From: Gracilibacillus oryzae
Lineage (GTDB): Bacteria; Bacillota; Bacilli; Bacillales; Amphibacillaceae
Length of the DNA: 34,853 nt
NCBI RefSeq assembly: GCF_009498735.1
Contig: NZ_ML762427.1
Coordinates: forward strand, 61,081 to 95,933
Reading direction: 5' to 3'
The notes under the pieces are model-generated. The model was not told the DNA's origin and did not search any database. It saw only the letters and a list, made by a program, of their open reading frames with translations. Positions 9,728-19,764 of the stretch are shown one piece after another. Position 1 is the first letter of the stretch. Every line of letters begins with the position of its first letter. The position numbers and the translations under genes are program-made.

Positions 9728-9759
9728 GATAAACACAGAATAGTATTTCACGGCCTATT

Positions 9760-9850
9760 CCACTTTCCTACGCTGGTGTTAACCAGTTCAGGTTCAAAGG
9801 GATCAAGAACATAATTCTCATCTCAGCCATTTAAATGGCACCCCTAGTGG
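9760..9850 (-). ncRNA. TPP riboswitch aptamer (THI element)
   Basis: Minus strand reads CCACTAGGGGTGCC, then GGCTGAGATGAGAA, CCCTTTGAACCTGAACTGG, and ACACCAGCGTAGGAAAGTGG. These are the conserved THI-box blocks, including CTGAGA and ACCTGA. P1 pairs CCACT (9846-9850) with AGTGG (9760-9764). It directly precedes the riboswitch terminator and controls thiD-thiM-thiE and perhaps the PfpI gene. Confidence 0.97.
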
Positions 9851-9864
9851 ATTGCACATATGTA

Positions 9865-15189: not shown

Positions 15190-16131
15190 CTAATTCGGTT
15201 TTATCTTTTTCTGTAAGAACTTGCTGTATATCGATGCAAGTATTTGCTGAAACAACATCCCAACTACTACCGGTACTGCCACTGCACCCGGAAAATACTG
15301 CACAGCAATTACCGCACCTGCACTAATATTCCGCATTCCGCCACTAAATGTTAAGGAGATAACATCCTCTTGTGTCCTTTTTAACGTTTTGCCGATAAAC
15401 CATGCTAATAAGTAACCTGTCCCTGCAATGAAAAACATACATACTGCGATTTTAATCAGTTTAAGATCAACAGATTTCAAATAGGGAGCAACTGCTGCAC
15501 TATTAATCATGATCACAATAGCTAACGTTAACTTGGAAAAAGGCGCTAATCTTGGACTCCATACTTCATGCACCTTACCCCTTGTCATCTCATGCAGAAT
15601 CATACCCAGCAATGACGGGATAACAATCATAATAAGCAGGCCTTTCATCATCCCCCATACTTCCAGCTCTATCCCTTGCCCCGCAAACAAGGATAAAGCA
15701 AATGGCACAATGAATGGGGACAGAATGGTATCAATTAAAATAATCGATAATGTTAATGCAACATTTCCTTTATTCATTGATACCCAAATAAAACTGGTAA
15801 TACCTGTCGGGATAATCATCGCAAGGACGAATCCGGTTATTGTTAACATATCACCATGAAATGTCAGCATACCTATTCCCCATGCCCATAGCGGCATGAT
15901 GATATGAAGTAAAACAAGTGCAATAATGATCGATAATGGATGGGCAATCACCCGATGCAGTGCAACAAAGTTCAAACTTAAGCTTCCGGCAAACGTCATA
16001 AAAGCAAAAATATAAGTAACAAGTCCTTCTAAATGAATAAAAAATGGTGCAAACAAAACACCGATAACGACACTGGCTGGTGCAATAAAAGGCATAATTC
16101 GTTGCAGAATCTGATTAAGCTGACTTAACAT
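15190..16131 (-). CDS. Bile acid:sodium symporter family (BASS) transporter
   Basis: A 313-residue integral membrane protein with nine or ten hydrophobic segments. The motifs FAFMTFAGSLSLNF near 40, PTGITSFIWVSMNKGN near 108 and FSGGMRNISAGAVIA near 262 match the two crossed-helix regions of the BASS fold (YocS-like). Substrate unknown; relatives carry organic anions such as pantoate or keto acids. A gap of 26 bases separates it from the ATPase gene upstream on the same strand, so the two may be co-transcribed. Confidence 0.85.
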   Translation of the reverse strand: MLSQLNQILQRIMPFIAPASVVIGVLFAPFFIHLEGLVTYIFAFMTFAGSLSLNFVALHRVIAHPLSIIIALVLLHIIMPLWAWGIGMLTFHGDMLTITGFVLAMIIPTGITSFIWVSMNKGNVALTLSIILIDTILSPFIVPFALSLFAGQGIELEVWGMMKGLLIMIVIPSLLGMILHEMTRGKVHEVWSPRLAPFSKLTLAIVIMINSAAVAPYLKSVDLKLIKIAVCMFFIAGTGYLLAWFIGKTLKRTQEDVISLTFSGGMRNISAGAVIAVQYFPGAVAVPVVVGMLFQQILASIYSKFLQKKIKPN

Positions 16132-16157
16132 ATATGTAATTCTCCTAAAATGTAATA

Positions 16158-16934
16158 CTATTTCCTTTTCTTAATCGAAGGTCTTTGGTCATTCCAATTC
16201 ACTTCCACTTCCACTCCAAAAAATTCGGATAATTTACTGCTTGTGATTATTTCCTTACTTTCCCCTTGGGCAAAAACAGTCCCTTTCTTCAATAGAAGGG
16301 TTTTATTAAAAACCGGCAAAATTTCTTCTACATGATGAGTTACATAGATAATGGAAGGTACCTTCTTGCTTGCAATCCGCTCAATGGACTCTAACAATGC
16401 TTCTCTTGCAATAAAGTCAAGGCCATTGGTTGGTTCATCCAATATCAACAGCTTTGGTTCACCCATTAACGCCCGCCCAATCATCACACGCTGCCGCTCC
16501 CCTTGTGACAGCATACGGAATGGCCGATTAGCATACTCATAGCAACCTAACTCCTTCAATAATTGTTTGGCTTGATCCCTCATTTTATCTGTCGGCTCTT
16601 CATACAGTCCGATAGAAGCAAATGCCCCACTCAAGATAACCTGATATGCAGTATCTGTTCCATATATTTTTTCTTTGATGGTTGATGATACTAATCCAAT
16701 TTGCTGTCGCAGCCGCTCTCCCAATATATCTTGTCCAAATTGCCTGCCAATAACATTCACATTCCCGGTTGTAGGAAAATAATAAGCACAAAGCATATTC
16801 AATAAGGCTGTTTTTCCAGCTCCGTTCAGACCAAGTAAGGCCCAATGTTCCCCATTCTCTATTTTCCAATTTACATCTTGAAGAATCCATTTCCCCTCTT
16901 TTTTCAATCCTACTTGCTCCAGATTCAAAACCAT
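16158..16934 (-). CDS. ABC-type ATP-binding protein (YlmA-like)
   Basis: 258 residues with Walker A GLNGAGKT at 35-42, signature LSQGE at 142-146, Walker B LLILDEP at 162-168 and the switch histidine in THHVEE. The N-terminus (LEQVGLKKEGKWILQDVNW) and length resemble B. subtilis YlmA, a solitary ATPase related to ModF/PhrA. No permease adjoins it; the BASS protein next door is not an ABC permease. The partner is therefore unknown. Ribosome site GAGGTG five bases before ATG. Confidence 0.8.
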   Translation of the reverse strand: MVLNLEQVGLKKEGKWILQDVNWKIENGEHWALLGLNGAGKTALLNMLCAYYFPTTGNVNVIGRQFGQDILGERLRQQIGLVSSTIKEKIYGTDTAYQVILSGAFASIGLYEEPTDKMRDQAKQLLKELGCYEYANRPFRMLSQGERQRVMIGRALMGEPKLLILDEPTNGLDFIAREALLESIERIASKKVPSIIYVTHHVEEILPVFNKTLLLKKGTVFAQGESKEIITSSKLSEFFGVEVEVNWNDQRPSIKKRK

Positions 16935-16971
16935 GTCATCACCTCACTATCCAGTATACACCCCTAAAAGA

Positions 16972-17099
16972 GGATGTTCAAAAAGTTACCAAATGATAAG
17001 TAATGAATCTCTTCGTTGGTTTGCAAGTCAACTCCTCAATTATCCAAAACCTGGGTTTTGATACTCCTCACTGTACCACCTCGACCTTCTTGCTTCTTA
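16972..17099. repeat. Dispersed intergenic repeat, copy B
   Basis: Inverted relative to copy A. Read on the minus strand it shares AAGAAGCAAGAAGG, GCAAACCAACGAAGAGATTCA (one change from copy A), CATTTG and CTTTTTGAACA. It carries extra internal sequence including CAAAACCCAGGTTTTG, a small palindrome absent from copy A, and lacks copy A's GTGTTCAAAA end, so it seems truncated on one side. Confidence 0.7.
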
Positions 17100-17141
17100 T
17101 TTACAAACAAAAAAATTTTATCATTTAGTTCAAAAAAACTA

Positions 17142-17170
17142 TTGAAAATGATTCTCATTATCGTTATAAT
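17142..17170 (+). promoter_or_regulatory. Fur-type promoter
   Basis: TTGAAA (17142-17147), an exact 17-base spacer, and consensus TATAAT (17165-17170). The spacer is filled by a Fur box, so this promoter should be silent in iron-rich cells. Confidence 0.8.
17144..17162. promoter_or_regulatory. Fur box
   Basis: GAAAATGATTCTCATTATC matches 16 of 19 positions of the classical Fur consensus GATAATGATAATCATTATC. It lies between and over the -35 and -10 elements of the promoter reading toward 17177. Confidence 0.82.
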
Positions 17171-17176
17171 AAGATC

Positions 17177-17304
17177 GTAGCACAAACCAGTGCATGAAAC
17201 ATTCCCTTTACACATATCTTTTGTTACCCCCAATCAACAAAAGTTTTAGGATGTTTCCCAATCCTTTGAGAGCAACTATTTTACATAGCTGCCTCTTTTT
17301 TTTT
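17177..17304 (+). ncRNA. Candidate Fur-regulated small RNA with C-rich loops
   Basis: About 128 nt between the Fur promoter and a terminator ahead of katA. Hairpin 1 is a perfect 8-bp stem CTTTTGTT / AACAAAAG (17218-17243) with a ten-base loop holding five Cs. Hairpin 2 (AGGAT / ATCCT, 17248-17265) shows TTTCCC in its loop. Hairpin 3 (17268-17295) is followed by nine Ts. C-rich unpaired stretches that can mask Shine-Dalgarno sites are known in Firmicute riboregulators such as the Fur-controlled FsrA of B. subtilis. A 45-codon frame inside has no ribosome site. Homology to FsrA is not established. Confidence 0.6.
17268..17304 (+). terminator. Terminator between the Fur-box transcript and katA
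   Basis: An imperfect stem (GAG, GCA and CTA paired with TAG, TGC and CTC) with loop TTTTACA, then nine Ts (17296-17304). It would stop the Fur-promoter transcript before the PerR/katA region, or act as an attenuator for read-through into katA. Confidence 0.65.
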
Positions 17305-17313
17305 GCGCTTTAA

Positions 17314-17328
17314 TTATAATTATTATAA
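17314..17328. promoter_or_regulatory. PerR box
   Basis: TTATAATTATTATAA is identical to the B. subtilis PerR consensus TTATAATnATTATAA (7-1-7 palindrome). It ends seven bases before the katA -35 element. Confidence 0.82.
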
Positions 17329-17335
17329 ATAAATA

Positions 17336-17363
17336 TTGATTTTTATAAAAATTGTATTATAAT
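17336..17363 (+). promoter_or_regulatory. katA promoter
   Basis: TTGATT (17336-17341), a 16-base spacer and TATAAT (17358-17363), giving a leader of about 30 bases before the katA ATG. A degenerate second PerR-like half-site overlaps the -10. Confidence 0.65.
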
Positions 17364-17399
17364 TAGATATACATTATTCATTAAGGAGAGGTGCTTTTT

Positions 17400-18869
17400 A
17401 TGAGTCAAGAGAAAAAATATTTAACAACAGCTTCAGGTGCGCCTGTTGGTGACAATCAAAATTCTATTACAGCCGGGTCTAGAGGACCTACTTTAATCCA
17501 GGACGTACATTTACTTGAAAAGCTGGCACACTTTAATCGTGAAAGAGTACCTGAACGTGTTGTGCATGCGAAAGGTGCAGGAGCACACGGTTATTTTGAA
17601 GTGACAAATGACGTTTCTAAATATACAAAAGCAGCATTTTTATCAGAAGTCGGCAAAAAGACGCCGATGTTCATCCGTTTTTCAACTGTTGCAGGAGAAT
17701 TGGGCTCAGCAGATACAGTACGTGACCCGCGCGGTTTTGCGGTTAAATTCTATACAGAAGAAGGAAACTACGATTTAGTTGGAAACAATACACCTGTCTT
17801 CTTTATCCGTGATGCAATCAAATTCCCTGATTTCATCCATACACAAAAAAGAAACCCGCAAACAAACTTAAAGGATGCAAACATGGTTTGGGATTTCTGG
17901 TCATTATCACCAGAGTCACTACATCAGATAACTTATCTGCACTCTGACCGCGGGATTCCGGCAACCCTTCGCCATATGAACGGTTATGGAAGCCATACAT
18001 TTAAATGGGTAAATAATGAAGGAGAAGCTGTCTGGGTCAAATATCATTTTATCGCTGATCAAGGTGTGAAAAACTTAGACCCGAAAGTTGCCGATGAGTT
18101 AGCTGGTACGAATCCTGATTACCATACAGAAGATTTATTTAATGCGATTCAGGAAGGCAATCATCCGTCCTGGACATTAAAAGTTCAAATTATGCCAGTG
18201 GAAGATGCCAATACGTATCGCTATGACCCATTTGATGTCACAAAAGTCTGGCCACATGCGGATTATCCACTAATTGAGGTTGGCCGTATGGTATTAGATC
18301 GTAATCCGGAAAACTATTTTGCAGAAGTGGAGCAAGCTGCCTTCTCACCTGGTCACTTTGTACCTGGTATCGAAGCATCTCCAGATAAAATGCTTCAAGG
18401 CCGTTTGTTTGCTTATTCTGATGCACACCGTTACCGAATTGGTGCCAATCATGAAGCAGTGCCGATTAACCGCTCTAAAGCACCAGTGCACAATAATCAG
18501 CGTGATGGTCAAATGCGCTTTGACGGTAATGGCGGGAGTGCACCTAACTATGAACCAAACAGTTTTACTCATACACCAAAAGAAACACCAGAGAATAAAA
18601 TTAGTCCATTCGAAGTAAGCGGCTTAGCAGACAGTGTTGCTTACGATAGTGATGACCACTATTCTCAGCCACGCGCTCTATTCCGTGATGTAATGAACGA
18701 CGAGGAGCGTGAACGGTTAATTCAGAACTTCGCCGATCATTTGAGTGGAGTAACAAGAGAAGGAATTGTGGAACGTCAATTAGAAAACTTCTATAAAGTT
18801 GACCCAGCTTTAGCAGAAGGTATTGCAGCAAAATTAAATGTAGCAGTACCGGCACACTTAAAGAAATAA
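17400..18869 (+). CDS. katA: Catalase, monofunctional heme type
   Basis: Breaks down hydrogen peroxide. 489 residues of the small-subunit clade: catalytic His56 ([11 protein letters not shown]), distal Asn129 (VGNNTPVFF) and the heme-ligand tyrosine at 339 in [23 protein letters not shown] is also conserved. ATG 17400 is preceded by AAGGAGAGG; a GTG nine bases earlier is not needed. Monocistronic, with a perfect PerR box upstream and terminator hairpins behind, so induction by peroxide is expected. The Fur-box transcript just upstream suggests a second, iron-linked input. No signal peptide, so cytosolic. Confidence 0.97.
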
Positions 18870-18923
18870 GCTAGATCAATCAACTGGTTACACCCTTGGT
18901 ATGACTGGGGTGAACCCTCTTTT

Positions 18924-18960
18924 AAAAAGAGATCAACAACCTTGTTGGTCTCTTTTTTTT
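18924..18960 (+). terminator. katA terminator
   Basis: AAAGAGATCAACAA / TTGTTGGTCTCTTT stem (one T-G) with a two-base tip plus closing pairs, running into eight Ts. An earlier hairpin GGTT-CACCC / GGGTG-AACC lies between it and the stop codon. Confidence 0.88.
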
Positions 18961-19001
18961 ATTACCGTTCAGCAGTTTTTCAATAAAATTTTCAAATATA
19001 C

Positions 19002-19027
19002 GTTTTCCCCTTTATAAGTTGGGGTAT
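19002..19027 (+). promoter_or_regulatory. Sigma-B-like promoter of the ectoine operon
   Basis: GTTTTC (19002-19007), a 14-base spacer and GGGTAT (19022-19027) fit the general-stress sigma-B consensus (GTTTAA - 12 to 15 - GGGTAT). No convincing sigma-A promoter is seen before ectA. The leader would be about 215 bases. Osmotic and general-stress induction is inferred. Confidence 0.6.
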
Positions 19028-19044
19028 ATTTACATTGTGTTTGA

Positions 19045-19059
19045 GAGCAAATTTTGCTC
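19045..19059. promoter_or_regulatory. 15-bp palindrome in the ect leader
   Basis: GAGCAAA-T-TTTGCTC, perfect around one base, lies about 18 bases after the sigma-B-like -10. It could be an operator or a short RNA hairpin. The regulator is unknown. Confidence 0.4.
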
Positions 19060-19112
19060 ATTTGTAAGAATACATGACAATATGGAAGGATTTATAAATG
19101 TTATTGTTATTG

Positions 19113-19170
19113 AACCGCTCTCAGCATAAGAGATGATGATTAATACAGTTTTATCACTGTATAAGCGGTT
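19113..19170 (+). other. Three-helix folded element in the ect leader
   Basis: An outer stem AACCGCT (19113-19119) / AGCGGTT (19164-19170) encloses a small CTC/GAG hairpin (19120-19132) and an ATACAG / CTGTAT hairpin (19143-19162) with an eight-base loop. No T-run follows, so it is not a terminator. It sits about 80 bases before ectA and could act at RNA level. The fold was found by eye. Confidence 0.45.
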
Positions 19171-19251
19171 TGAGATTATTTCCATTTCCCGATAACATAT
19201 ATTATGTACTAATTACGACACGGGAGATTACCAAATGTGAAAGGAGTAATT

Positions 19252-19764
19252 GTGATTAATACACATAATAAACAAGCTCCAGAACTGGAAGCAGTACTGA
19301 GTCATCCTGCAAAAGAAGACGGAGCAGCGATGTGGGAATTAGTAACCAAATCCACATTGGATACCAATTCTTCATATAAATACATTTTAATGTCTGAATA
19401 TTTCAATGAGACATGTGTTGTAGCAAAACAAAATAACCAAGTGGTTGGTTTTATCACCGCATTTATCCCTCCGAAAAAGCAGGATGCCATATTTATTTGG
19501 CAAGTGGGAGTGGATGCTTCACAAAGAGGCAAAGGAATTGCATCTAAAATGCTCCATTTTTTATTAAAAAGCAAGGCATGTAAAGATGTTTCTTTTGTAG
19601 AGGCAACCATCACACCATCTAATCGTGCTTCACAATCACTATTTCAAAAATTAGCGCGAGATTTCAATACCGAAATCCGATCATGCGAGTTCTTCACAGA
19701 AGATGTGTTTCCAGGTGAAGATCATGAAGAAGAGTTAAAGTTTATTGTGGGCCCTCTTGCATGA
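19252..19764 (+). CDS. ectA: L-2,4-diaminobutyrate N-acetyltransferase
   Basis: Second step of ectoine synthesis: transfers acetyl from acetyl-CoA to diaminobutyrate. A GNAT-fold protein of 170 residues with the acetyl-CoA loop QRGKGIA at 91-97 (VGVDASQRGKGIASKML) and the EctA-type end region TPSNRASQSLF. GTG 19252 is chosen because AAAGGAG lies five bases upstream; GTG 19237, with a poorer site, would add five residues. First gene of ectA-ectB-ectC behind a sigma-B-like promoter and a long structured leader. A strong hairpin follows the stop. Confidence 0.95.
   Translation: MINTHNKQAPELEAVLSHPAKEDGAAMWELVTKSTLDTNSSYKYILMSEYFNETCVVAKQNNQVVGFITAFIPPKKQDAIFIWQVGVDASQRGKGIASKMLHFLLKSKACKDVSFVEATITPSNRASQSLFQKLARDFNTEIRSCEFFTEDVFPGEDHEEELKFIVGPLA

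Follow-up and report, generated by a model that had tools for sequence, protein, structure and literature searches.

Upstream of the haem catalase gene katA of Gracilibacillus, a promoter whose spacer is filled by a Fur box is followed by a terminator before any gene begins. This arrangement raises the question of what product the unit delivers and on which genes it would act. The unit lies at positions 17142-17304 of the window, i.e., the whole stretch of 34,853 nucleotides that was analysed. The original prediction, drawn up from the letters of the DNA, had placed an iron-sparing, Fur-controlled small RNA (sRNA) here. Conserved signals, a separate promoter for katA and antisense matches to the start regions of iron-enzyme genes support this proposal. 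We therefore consider that 17142-17304 encodes a Fur-repressed, trans-acting iron-sparing sRNA that would function like FsrA or IsrR, a reading to which we assign a probability of roughly 75%.

Architecture, fold and distribution of the candidate RNA

Judged by its signals, the region forms a separate transcription unit. The near-consensus promoter that had been foreseen is present and obtained the top score among 18 promoter-like sites in 15500-19500. The Fur box in its spacer agrees with the Fur consensus at 17 of 19 positions on the plus strand and at 16 of 19 on the minus strand; the presence of the box is thus confirmed, while the score of 16/19 claimed for it applies to the minus strand. 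It is the only site of the window with at most three mismatches (chance mean of 0.05 matches; 1 of 100 shuffles equals it). The expected hairpin with nine Ts ahead of any gene was found as well. This terminator was absent from the output of a simple terminator scan, probably because its stem contains internal mismatches. The unit would accordingly yield an independent non-coding transcript that ends at the terminator. All features of the locus are compiled in Table 1.

Table 1 Features of the sRNA locus and its surroundings, in window coordinates.
Feature	Position	Strand	Basis
Divergent ABC-transporter ATPase gene	16158-16934	-	Pfam ABC_tran
sRNA promoter, sigma-A type, TTGAAA-17-TATAAT	17142-17170	+	11/12 consensus letters
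Fur box GAAAATGATTCTCATTATC, fills the sRNA promoter spacer	17144-17162		17/19 letters (+), 16/19 (-)
Putative non-coding RNA, ~128 nt	17177-17304	+	Start inferred from -10 position, end from T run
5' stem GCAC/GTGC	17180-17193	+	Fold; ATCAC/GTGAT in many congeners
Long-range closing stem, 5' arm GAAACATTC	17196-17204	+	Fold, orthologues, pair counts
8-bp hairpin CTTTTGTT[ACCCCCAATC]AACAAAAG	17218-17243	+	Fold
Predicted seed GUUACCCCC	17223-17231	+	C run unpaired; antisense to iron-gene start regions
Long-range closing stem, 3' arm GGATGTTTC	17249-17257	+	Fold, orthologues, pair counts
Intrinsic terminator, stem and nine Ts	17268-17304	+	Sequence, fold; stem and T run in orthologues
PerR box TTATAATTATTATAA of katA, outside the sRNA	17314-17328		14/14 specified letters
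katA own promoter, TTGATT-16-TATAAT	17336-17363	+	Promoter scan; same core in other loci by eye
katA, haem catalase	17400-18869	+	Pfam Catalase 2.5e-203

The transcript of about 128 nt is structured, as had been proposed. It folds at -25.2 kcal/mol, compared with -12.9 ± 2.7 kcal/mol for shuffled sequences (z -4.5), and none of 200 shuffles folded as well. The minimum-free-energy fold contains the perfect 8-bp stem of the original prediction (CTTTTGTT/AACAAAAG), showing the loop ACCCCCAAUC with the five Cs inside. A second hairpin, which was to carry TTTCCC in its loop, does not appear in the minimum-free-energy fold of 17177-17304. Its segment GGATGTTTC pairs instead with GAAACATTC, better described as a long-range closing stem of 9 bp that encloses the 8-bp hairpin. 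The C run of the predicted seed is unpaired in all 20 folded orthologues (P unpaired at least 0.95). Pair counts over 17 sequences in 16 distinct rows, with G003, G004 and G005 left out, gave 96% paired cells in comparison to 37-56% when slid. Double changes were confined to two pairs, a number that 60 of 500 shuffles reached. Covariation is weak because the sRNA sequence itself is nearly frozen, and the structure given here is a model derived from folding and not from covariation.

Within Gracilibacillus, the promoter, Fur box, loop and terminator are kept, as the conservation check had demanded; outside the genus, the core model matched three genera only (E up to 0.01, strict filters). A DNA search of 17 genus genomes gave matches in all of them at E up to 1, and the sRNA is present in 16. 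The best match in the other one, G015, was rejected as sRNA, since it consists of a Fur box only, located before a transporter-like gene. The core covariance model, built from 12 sequences and run on 159 family genomes under strict filtering, by which weak matches may be missed, matched 21 genomes. Of these, 16 belong to the genus and four are spread over three further genera; the remaining one, G142, was rejected as a false positive for its lack of a Fur box and of such a loop and for its different neighbour genes. In an evenly drawn sample of the order, the model matched 5 of 397 genomes, all of the own genus. A named pattern scan returned 14 matches, ten from Gracilibacillus, three from Aquibacillus and one from Saliterribacillus. 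No plasmid match was found for the sRNA.

Apart from the length of the C run, TTGTTACCCCCAA is invariant in all 20 loci, and 62 core columns are invariant across the 12 closest sequences. The promoter spacer measures 17 in each of the 16 Gracilibacillus loci and 18 in each of the four loci of other genera. The Fur box scores 17-18/19 in 19 of 20 loci (15/16 in the genus, 4/4 outside) and 14/19 in G005. All 16 genus loci retain the promoter and the C-rich hairpin, followed by a PerR-like box (0-2 mismatches) and the katA start. The 5' stem and the terminator differ in sequence among orthologues, with the stem retained in most folds; the terminator of G004 differs from that of the other loci. 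In G003 (locus L020), the C-rich hairpin is directly followed by ~60 inserted bases that include a further terminator-like hairpin, an arrangement that might result in a shortened RNA.

No Rfam family reached its gathering score in the window RNA or in six related loci. Searching with the FsrA model (RF02273), as had been suggested, returned nothing in 16935-17420 even at an E limit of 10. The best match of this model in the whole genome scored 25.9 bits, compared to a cut-off of 80, and the cut-off was exceeded in none of 159 family genomes, while the B. subtilis control was found. The idea of an FsrA orthologue was hence rejected. Nine genomes showed weak matches, which by eye resemble ordinary terminators without Fur boxes. 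A match to mmgR (suhB) at 17219-17309 (21.9 bits, cut-off 41) was discarded as a C-rich and terminator resemblance. The RoxS/RsaE model (RF01820) had no match at 16935-17420 either. Of the proposed loop of the FsrA/RoxS type, a C-rich loop complementary to Shine-Dalgarno sites remains, but by Rfam the RNA is neither FsrA nor RoxS. A literature search, judged by titles, found no paper describing this RNA or its group. The region 17142-17304 probably encodes an undescribed small RNA, predicted to be made under iron shortage. It belongs to a conserved sRNA gene family that we did not find described, by mechanism of the ordinary regulator sort.

Predicted targets and their G-boxes

sdhC and aconitase were picked as candidates before looking, because FsrA regulates both, which PMC8216469 bears out. 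The Shine-Dalgarno region of sdhC contains GGGGGTA in 17 of 17 genus genomes. For citB, encoding aconitase, GGGGGTAA precedes the start in 17/17 and GGGGGTAAC in 16/17 of these genomes. The start of leuD carries GGGGGTAAC in nine of the 17, GGGGGTAT in one and an AAGGAGG-type sequence in the other seven. Over all nine of its nucleotides, the seed GUUACCCCC is exactly antisense to the Shine-Dalgarno regions of citB and leuD; with those of sdhC, sdhB, qcrA and a gene for a CDGSH Fe-S protein it shares matches of 7-8 nt. Another sdhC site, in which AGGGAAU would face AUUCCCU, was rejected, since it follows codons and is not intact in this genome.

Genome-wide, we searched for GGGGGTAA at 2-10 nt from a start codon, using the reversed pattern as control. 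This genome (G000) yielded 21 matches at 20 places versus 38 for the control, and G002 yielded 27 versus 29, so that the pattern is no commoner than its reversal in either genome. Thirteen of the 20 places in G000 open frames of 56 aa or more and were kept as gene starts; the seven dropped comprise six frames of at most 26 aa and the antisense strand of the sRNA itself (59 aa). Named partly by eye, the iron-linked starts among the 13 are those of aconitase, LeuD, the Rieske subunit, the CDGSH Fe-S protein and siroheme synthase (tetrapyrrole methylase), and the others belong to NadK, TruB, a rhodanese/metallo-beta-lactamase protein, a GNAT protein, UvrB, a 382-aa protein and two small proteins. 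Four of the 13 are thus Fe-S proteins or Fe-S enzyme subunits (LeuD, aconitase, Rieske, CDGSH), and one is the siroheme synthase. The probability of at least four Fe-S starts is ~5e-4 at an assumed Fe-S share of 3% and 3e-3 at 5%. LeuD, aconitase, Rieske, CDGSH, NadK and the rhodanese/metallo-beta-lactamase protein recur among the G002 matches, where a ResA-like protein and a siderophore-type permease are additional. Siroheme synthase is not among the G002 matches and reads GGGGGATAAC there.

When duplexes of the loop with 310 sampled start regions of G000 were ranked, the four best were LeuD, SdhB, siroheme synthase and SdhC, which were also the only regions of the 310 with GGGGGTA. After addition of shorter genes (384 regions), the same four were among the five best; rank 3 was taken by a small ORF of the window (11878, + strand). 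GGGGGTA stood before five of the 384 starts, the fifth being a ZapA-like gene. The sample consists of 20 stretches, one of which was chosen because it holds sdhC, and sdhC and sdhB were therefore not drawn blind. For G002 (364 regions, names by eye), the top ten include LeuD, HemA, SdhC, siroheme synthase, SdhB and a cytochrome oxidase subunit together with four genes without evident iron link, the very best being a Spo0E-like gene. Several strong loop duplexes belong to genes without iron link. In the sRNA-negative genome G043 (370 regions, names by eye), SdhC ranked second and HemA fourth. hemA, by eye the glutamyl-tRNA reductase gene, has a GGGGGTA box both in G002, which contains the sRNA, and in G043, which does not. 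Taking sdhC, citB and leuD jointly, the native loop did better than 299 of 300 complete shuffles; when the flanks alone were shuffled and CCCCC was left in place, it did better than 297 of 300.

We propose the following course of events. With iron, Fur would cover the spacer of the sRNA promoter, as the location of its box suggests, and without iron the RNA of ~128 nt would be transcribed. The closing stem and the 8-bp hairpin would then present ACCCCCAAUC as a single-stranded loop, whose GUUACCCCC segment is predicted to pair with Shine-Dalgarno regions rich in G (GGGGGUAAC or shorter versions of it) in the mRNAs of aconitase, the isopropylmalate isomerase small subunit, succinate dehydrogenase (sdhC, sdhB), the Rieske subunit and the CDGSH Fe-S protein. 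Pairing would block translation of these targets, and the shut-off of iron-using proteins would probably save iron.

On the level of sequence, the candidate RNA thus has the complementarity to iron-enzyme start regions that is expected of this functional kind, and the boxes are not exclusive to genomes bearing it. GGGGGTA is found at sdhC in 20 of 20 genomes with the sRNA, including 4/4 outside the genus, versus 33 of 47 sRNA-negative family genomes (GGGGGTAAC in 19). Kinship alone could explain this difference. As the box is widespread without the sRNA, it was rejected as proof of co-evolution between the two. G015, which lacks the sRNA, keeps boxed sdhC and citB. In box counts covering 51 regions out of 141 genomes with sdhC, the Shine-Dalgarno sequence has at least five Gs in 49/51 and GGGGGTA in 37/51 family genomes, in variable surroundings. 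A loop of 8 C facing an sdhC box of 8 G in G001 was rejected as compensatory change; homopolymer sequencing errors are likely, because citB of this genome has extra Gs and a broken reading frame. The presence of the box in 33 of 47 sRNA-negative genomes indicates that the G-boxes either predate this sRNA or do not depend on it. Where it is missing, they are either read by another C-rich RNA or kept for other reasons.

One such reader might be RoxS/RsaE. In this scenario, the sRNA is real and Fur-controlled, but it is chiefly RoxS/RsaE or another C-rich RNA that targets the G-boxed mRNAs, and the sRNA shares them in part or serves as a competitor or decoy. The frequency of the sdhC box in sRNA-negative genomes would fit, as would the wide occurrence of RoxS-like sequences: the model found these in 143 of 159 family genomes, in some of them 2-3 times, and always under the Rfam cut-off. 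Sub-threshold matches in so many genomes suggest that the Rfam RoxS/RsaE model is too narrow for this bacterial family. The match of this genome lies at G000:C1:299277-299384 (59.8 bits, cut-off 79). One C-rich RoxS segment ranks leuD first, citB sixth, and sdhC and qcrA ninth of 310, and the NAD kinase PpnKB is listed in the B. subtilis RoxS regulon in PMC8216469, with NadK being boxed here. However, the RoxS-like sequences of six relatives contain ACCCCUUU and CUCCCAUCCC, but not UUACCCCC, and even the best-pairing RoxS segment binds less strongly than the sRNA loop to citB (-12.8 versus -18.4 kcal/mol), leuD (-14.7 versus -18.9 kcal/mol) and the CDGSH gene (-11.2 versus -16.6 kcal/mol). The flank shuffles described above point in the same direction, as a CCCCC core in other surroundings nearly always performs worse than the native loop. 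We therefore regard a leading role of RoxS as unlikely and prefer the reading of an iron-sparing sRNA.

Tentatively, the G-box GGGGGUAA(C) at citB, sdhC, leuD, qcrA, hemA and the CDGSH gene may represent an old, shared 'iron-sparing address' of the family that outlives any one sRNA, with unrelated sRNA genes (FsrA, IsrR, this RNA and perhaps others) arising, getting lost and converging on it. We offer this as a possible rather than a favoured explanation.

katA and the neighbouring genes

The original prediction had the sRNA lodged beside a heme catalase gene, and the Pfam assignment of katA agrees with this. In 20 of 20 loci, the sRNA adjoins katA on its upstream side and on the same strand. 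Such constancy of position and strand would also suit a katA 5' leader or attenuator, in which Fur-controlled read-through ties iron to catalase. Past the terminator, however, come a PerR box and a promoter that belong to katA itself, hence the sRNA is not simply the katA leader; the 16 genus loci all have a PerR-type box and a promoter for katA beyond the terminator. Extra DNA separates the sRNA terminator from the katA promoter in G007, G014 and G013, and G003 gains its second terminator-like hairpin, which makes a leader very improbable. The PerR box has 1-2 mismatches in 15 other genus loci; 7 of 100 shuffles contain a match within one mismatch. katA is no predicted target of the sRNA either, since its start region ranks 176 of 310 in the duplex with the loop.

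That the transcript encodes a small peptide is scarcely credible: a stop-free frame of 37 codons runs from an ATG at 17194 to the transcript end, but by eye no Shine-Dalgarno sequence precedes this ATG, the longest frames of the 20 sRNA sequences (14-40 aa) differ in their starts and share no common or conserved ORF, and the loop is frozen at the nucleotide level.

On the other side of the sRNA, the ABC-transporter ATPase gene was found in all seven loci checked (window, G013, G005 and four non-genus loci; relatives by eye), the four non-genus loci having both katA and this gene as neighbours. In the window, a gene of the sodium/bile-acid symporter family (SBF; 15190-16131, - strand) adjoins the ATPase gene, and by eye an SBF-like gene follows it in other listed loci, too. 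The window also contains a TPP riboswitch aptamer (9748-9855, - strand, 84.4 bits).

Comparison with known small RNAs

If the preferred reading is true, the Fur-repressed iron-sparing sRNA would join FsrA and IsrR as a further Firmicutes sRNA of this function, in a group of halophilic bacilli whose searched genomes never attain the cut-off of the FsrA model. Its 9-nt antisense loop would be an unusually readable target code, with a predicted regulon testable gene by gene. It would further support repeated evolution of iron-sparing sRNAs onto the same mRNAs. With the sRNA gene in few genera and the target boxes more widespread, the system offers a clean case for asking which side evolves first.

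FsrA of B. subtilis is a Fur-controlled sRNA with C-rich regions, to which the Fur-box promoter (17/19) and the C-rich loop correspond here. Crosslinking recovered earlier FsrA targets, among them sdhC, citB, leuABCD, qcrB, resABC and gltAB (PMC8216469). Unlike the ~128-nt RNA described here, FsrA comprises 84 nt (PMC12871923), and the RF02273 model has no match at this locus. IsrR of Staphylococcus is Fur-repressed and, according to PMC9410917, has three C-rich regions, of which CRR1 contains four to seven C and lies in a stem-loop; its predicted targets include Fe-S protein mRNAs such as that of CitB. The same source gives IsrR a length of 174 nt and two Fur boxes, whereas the present RNA, at ~128 nt, has a single Fur box and a single strong C-rich loop. 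IsrR is stated to bind acnA and sdhC, and its binding to katA was shown by EMSA (PMC12607789), whereas katA is not a predicted target in our case. RoxS/RsaE likewise direct C-rich regions against mRNA start regions and have targets in central metabolism (PMC8216469), but a separate RoxS-like locus exists in this genome and the C-rich motifs differ in six relatives. The likeness to FsrA and IsrR, the latter compared by its published description, would be one of mode of action, and homology is claimed with neither.

RyhB and PrrF of proteobacteria follow a Fur-repressed iron-sparing logic. This logic would be common to them and the candidate sRNA, and no sequence relation is claimed. As stated in PMC9410917, RyhB and PrrF share Fe-S enzyme targets with such sRNAs, and only FsrA among them uses a C-rich motif to bind Shine-Dalgarno sites.
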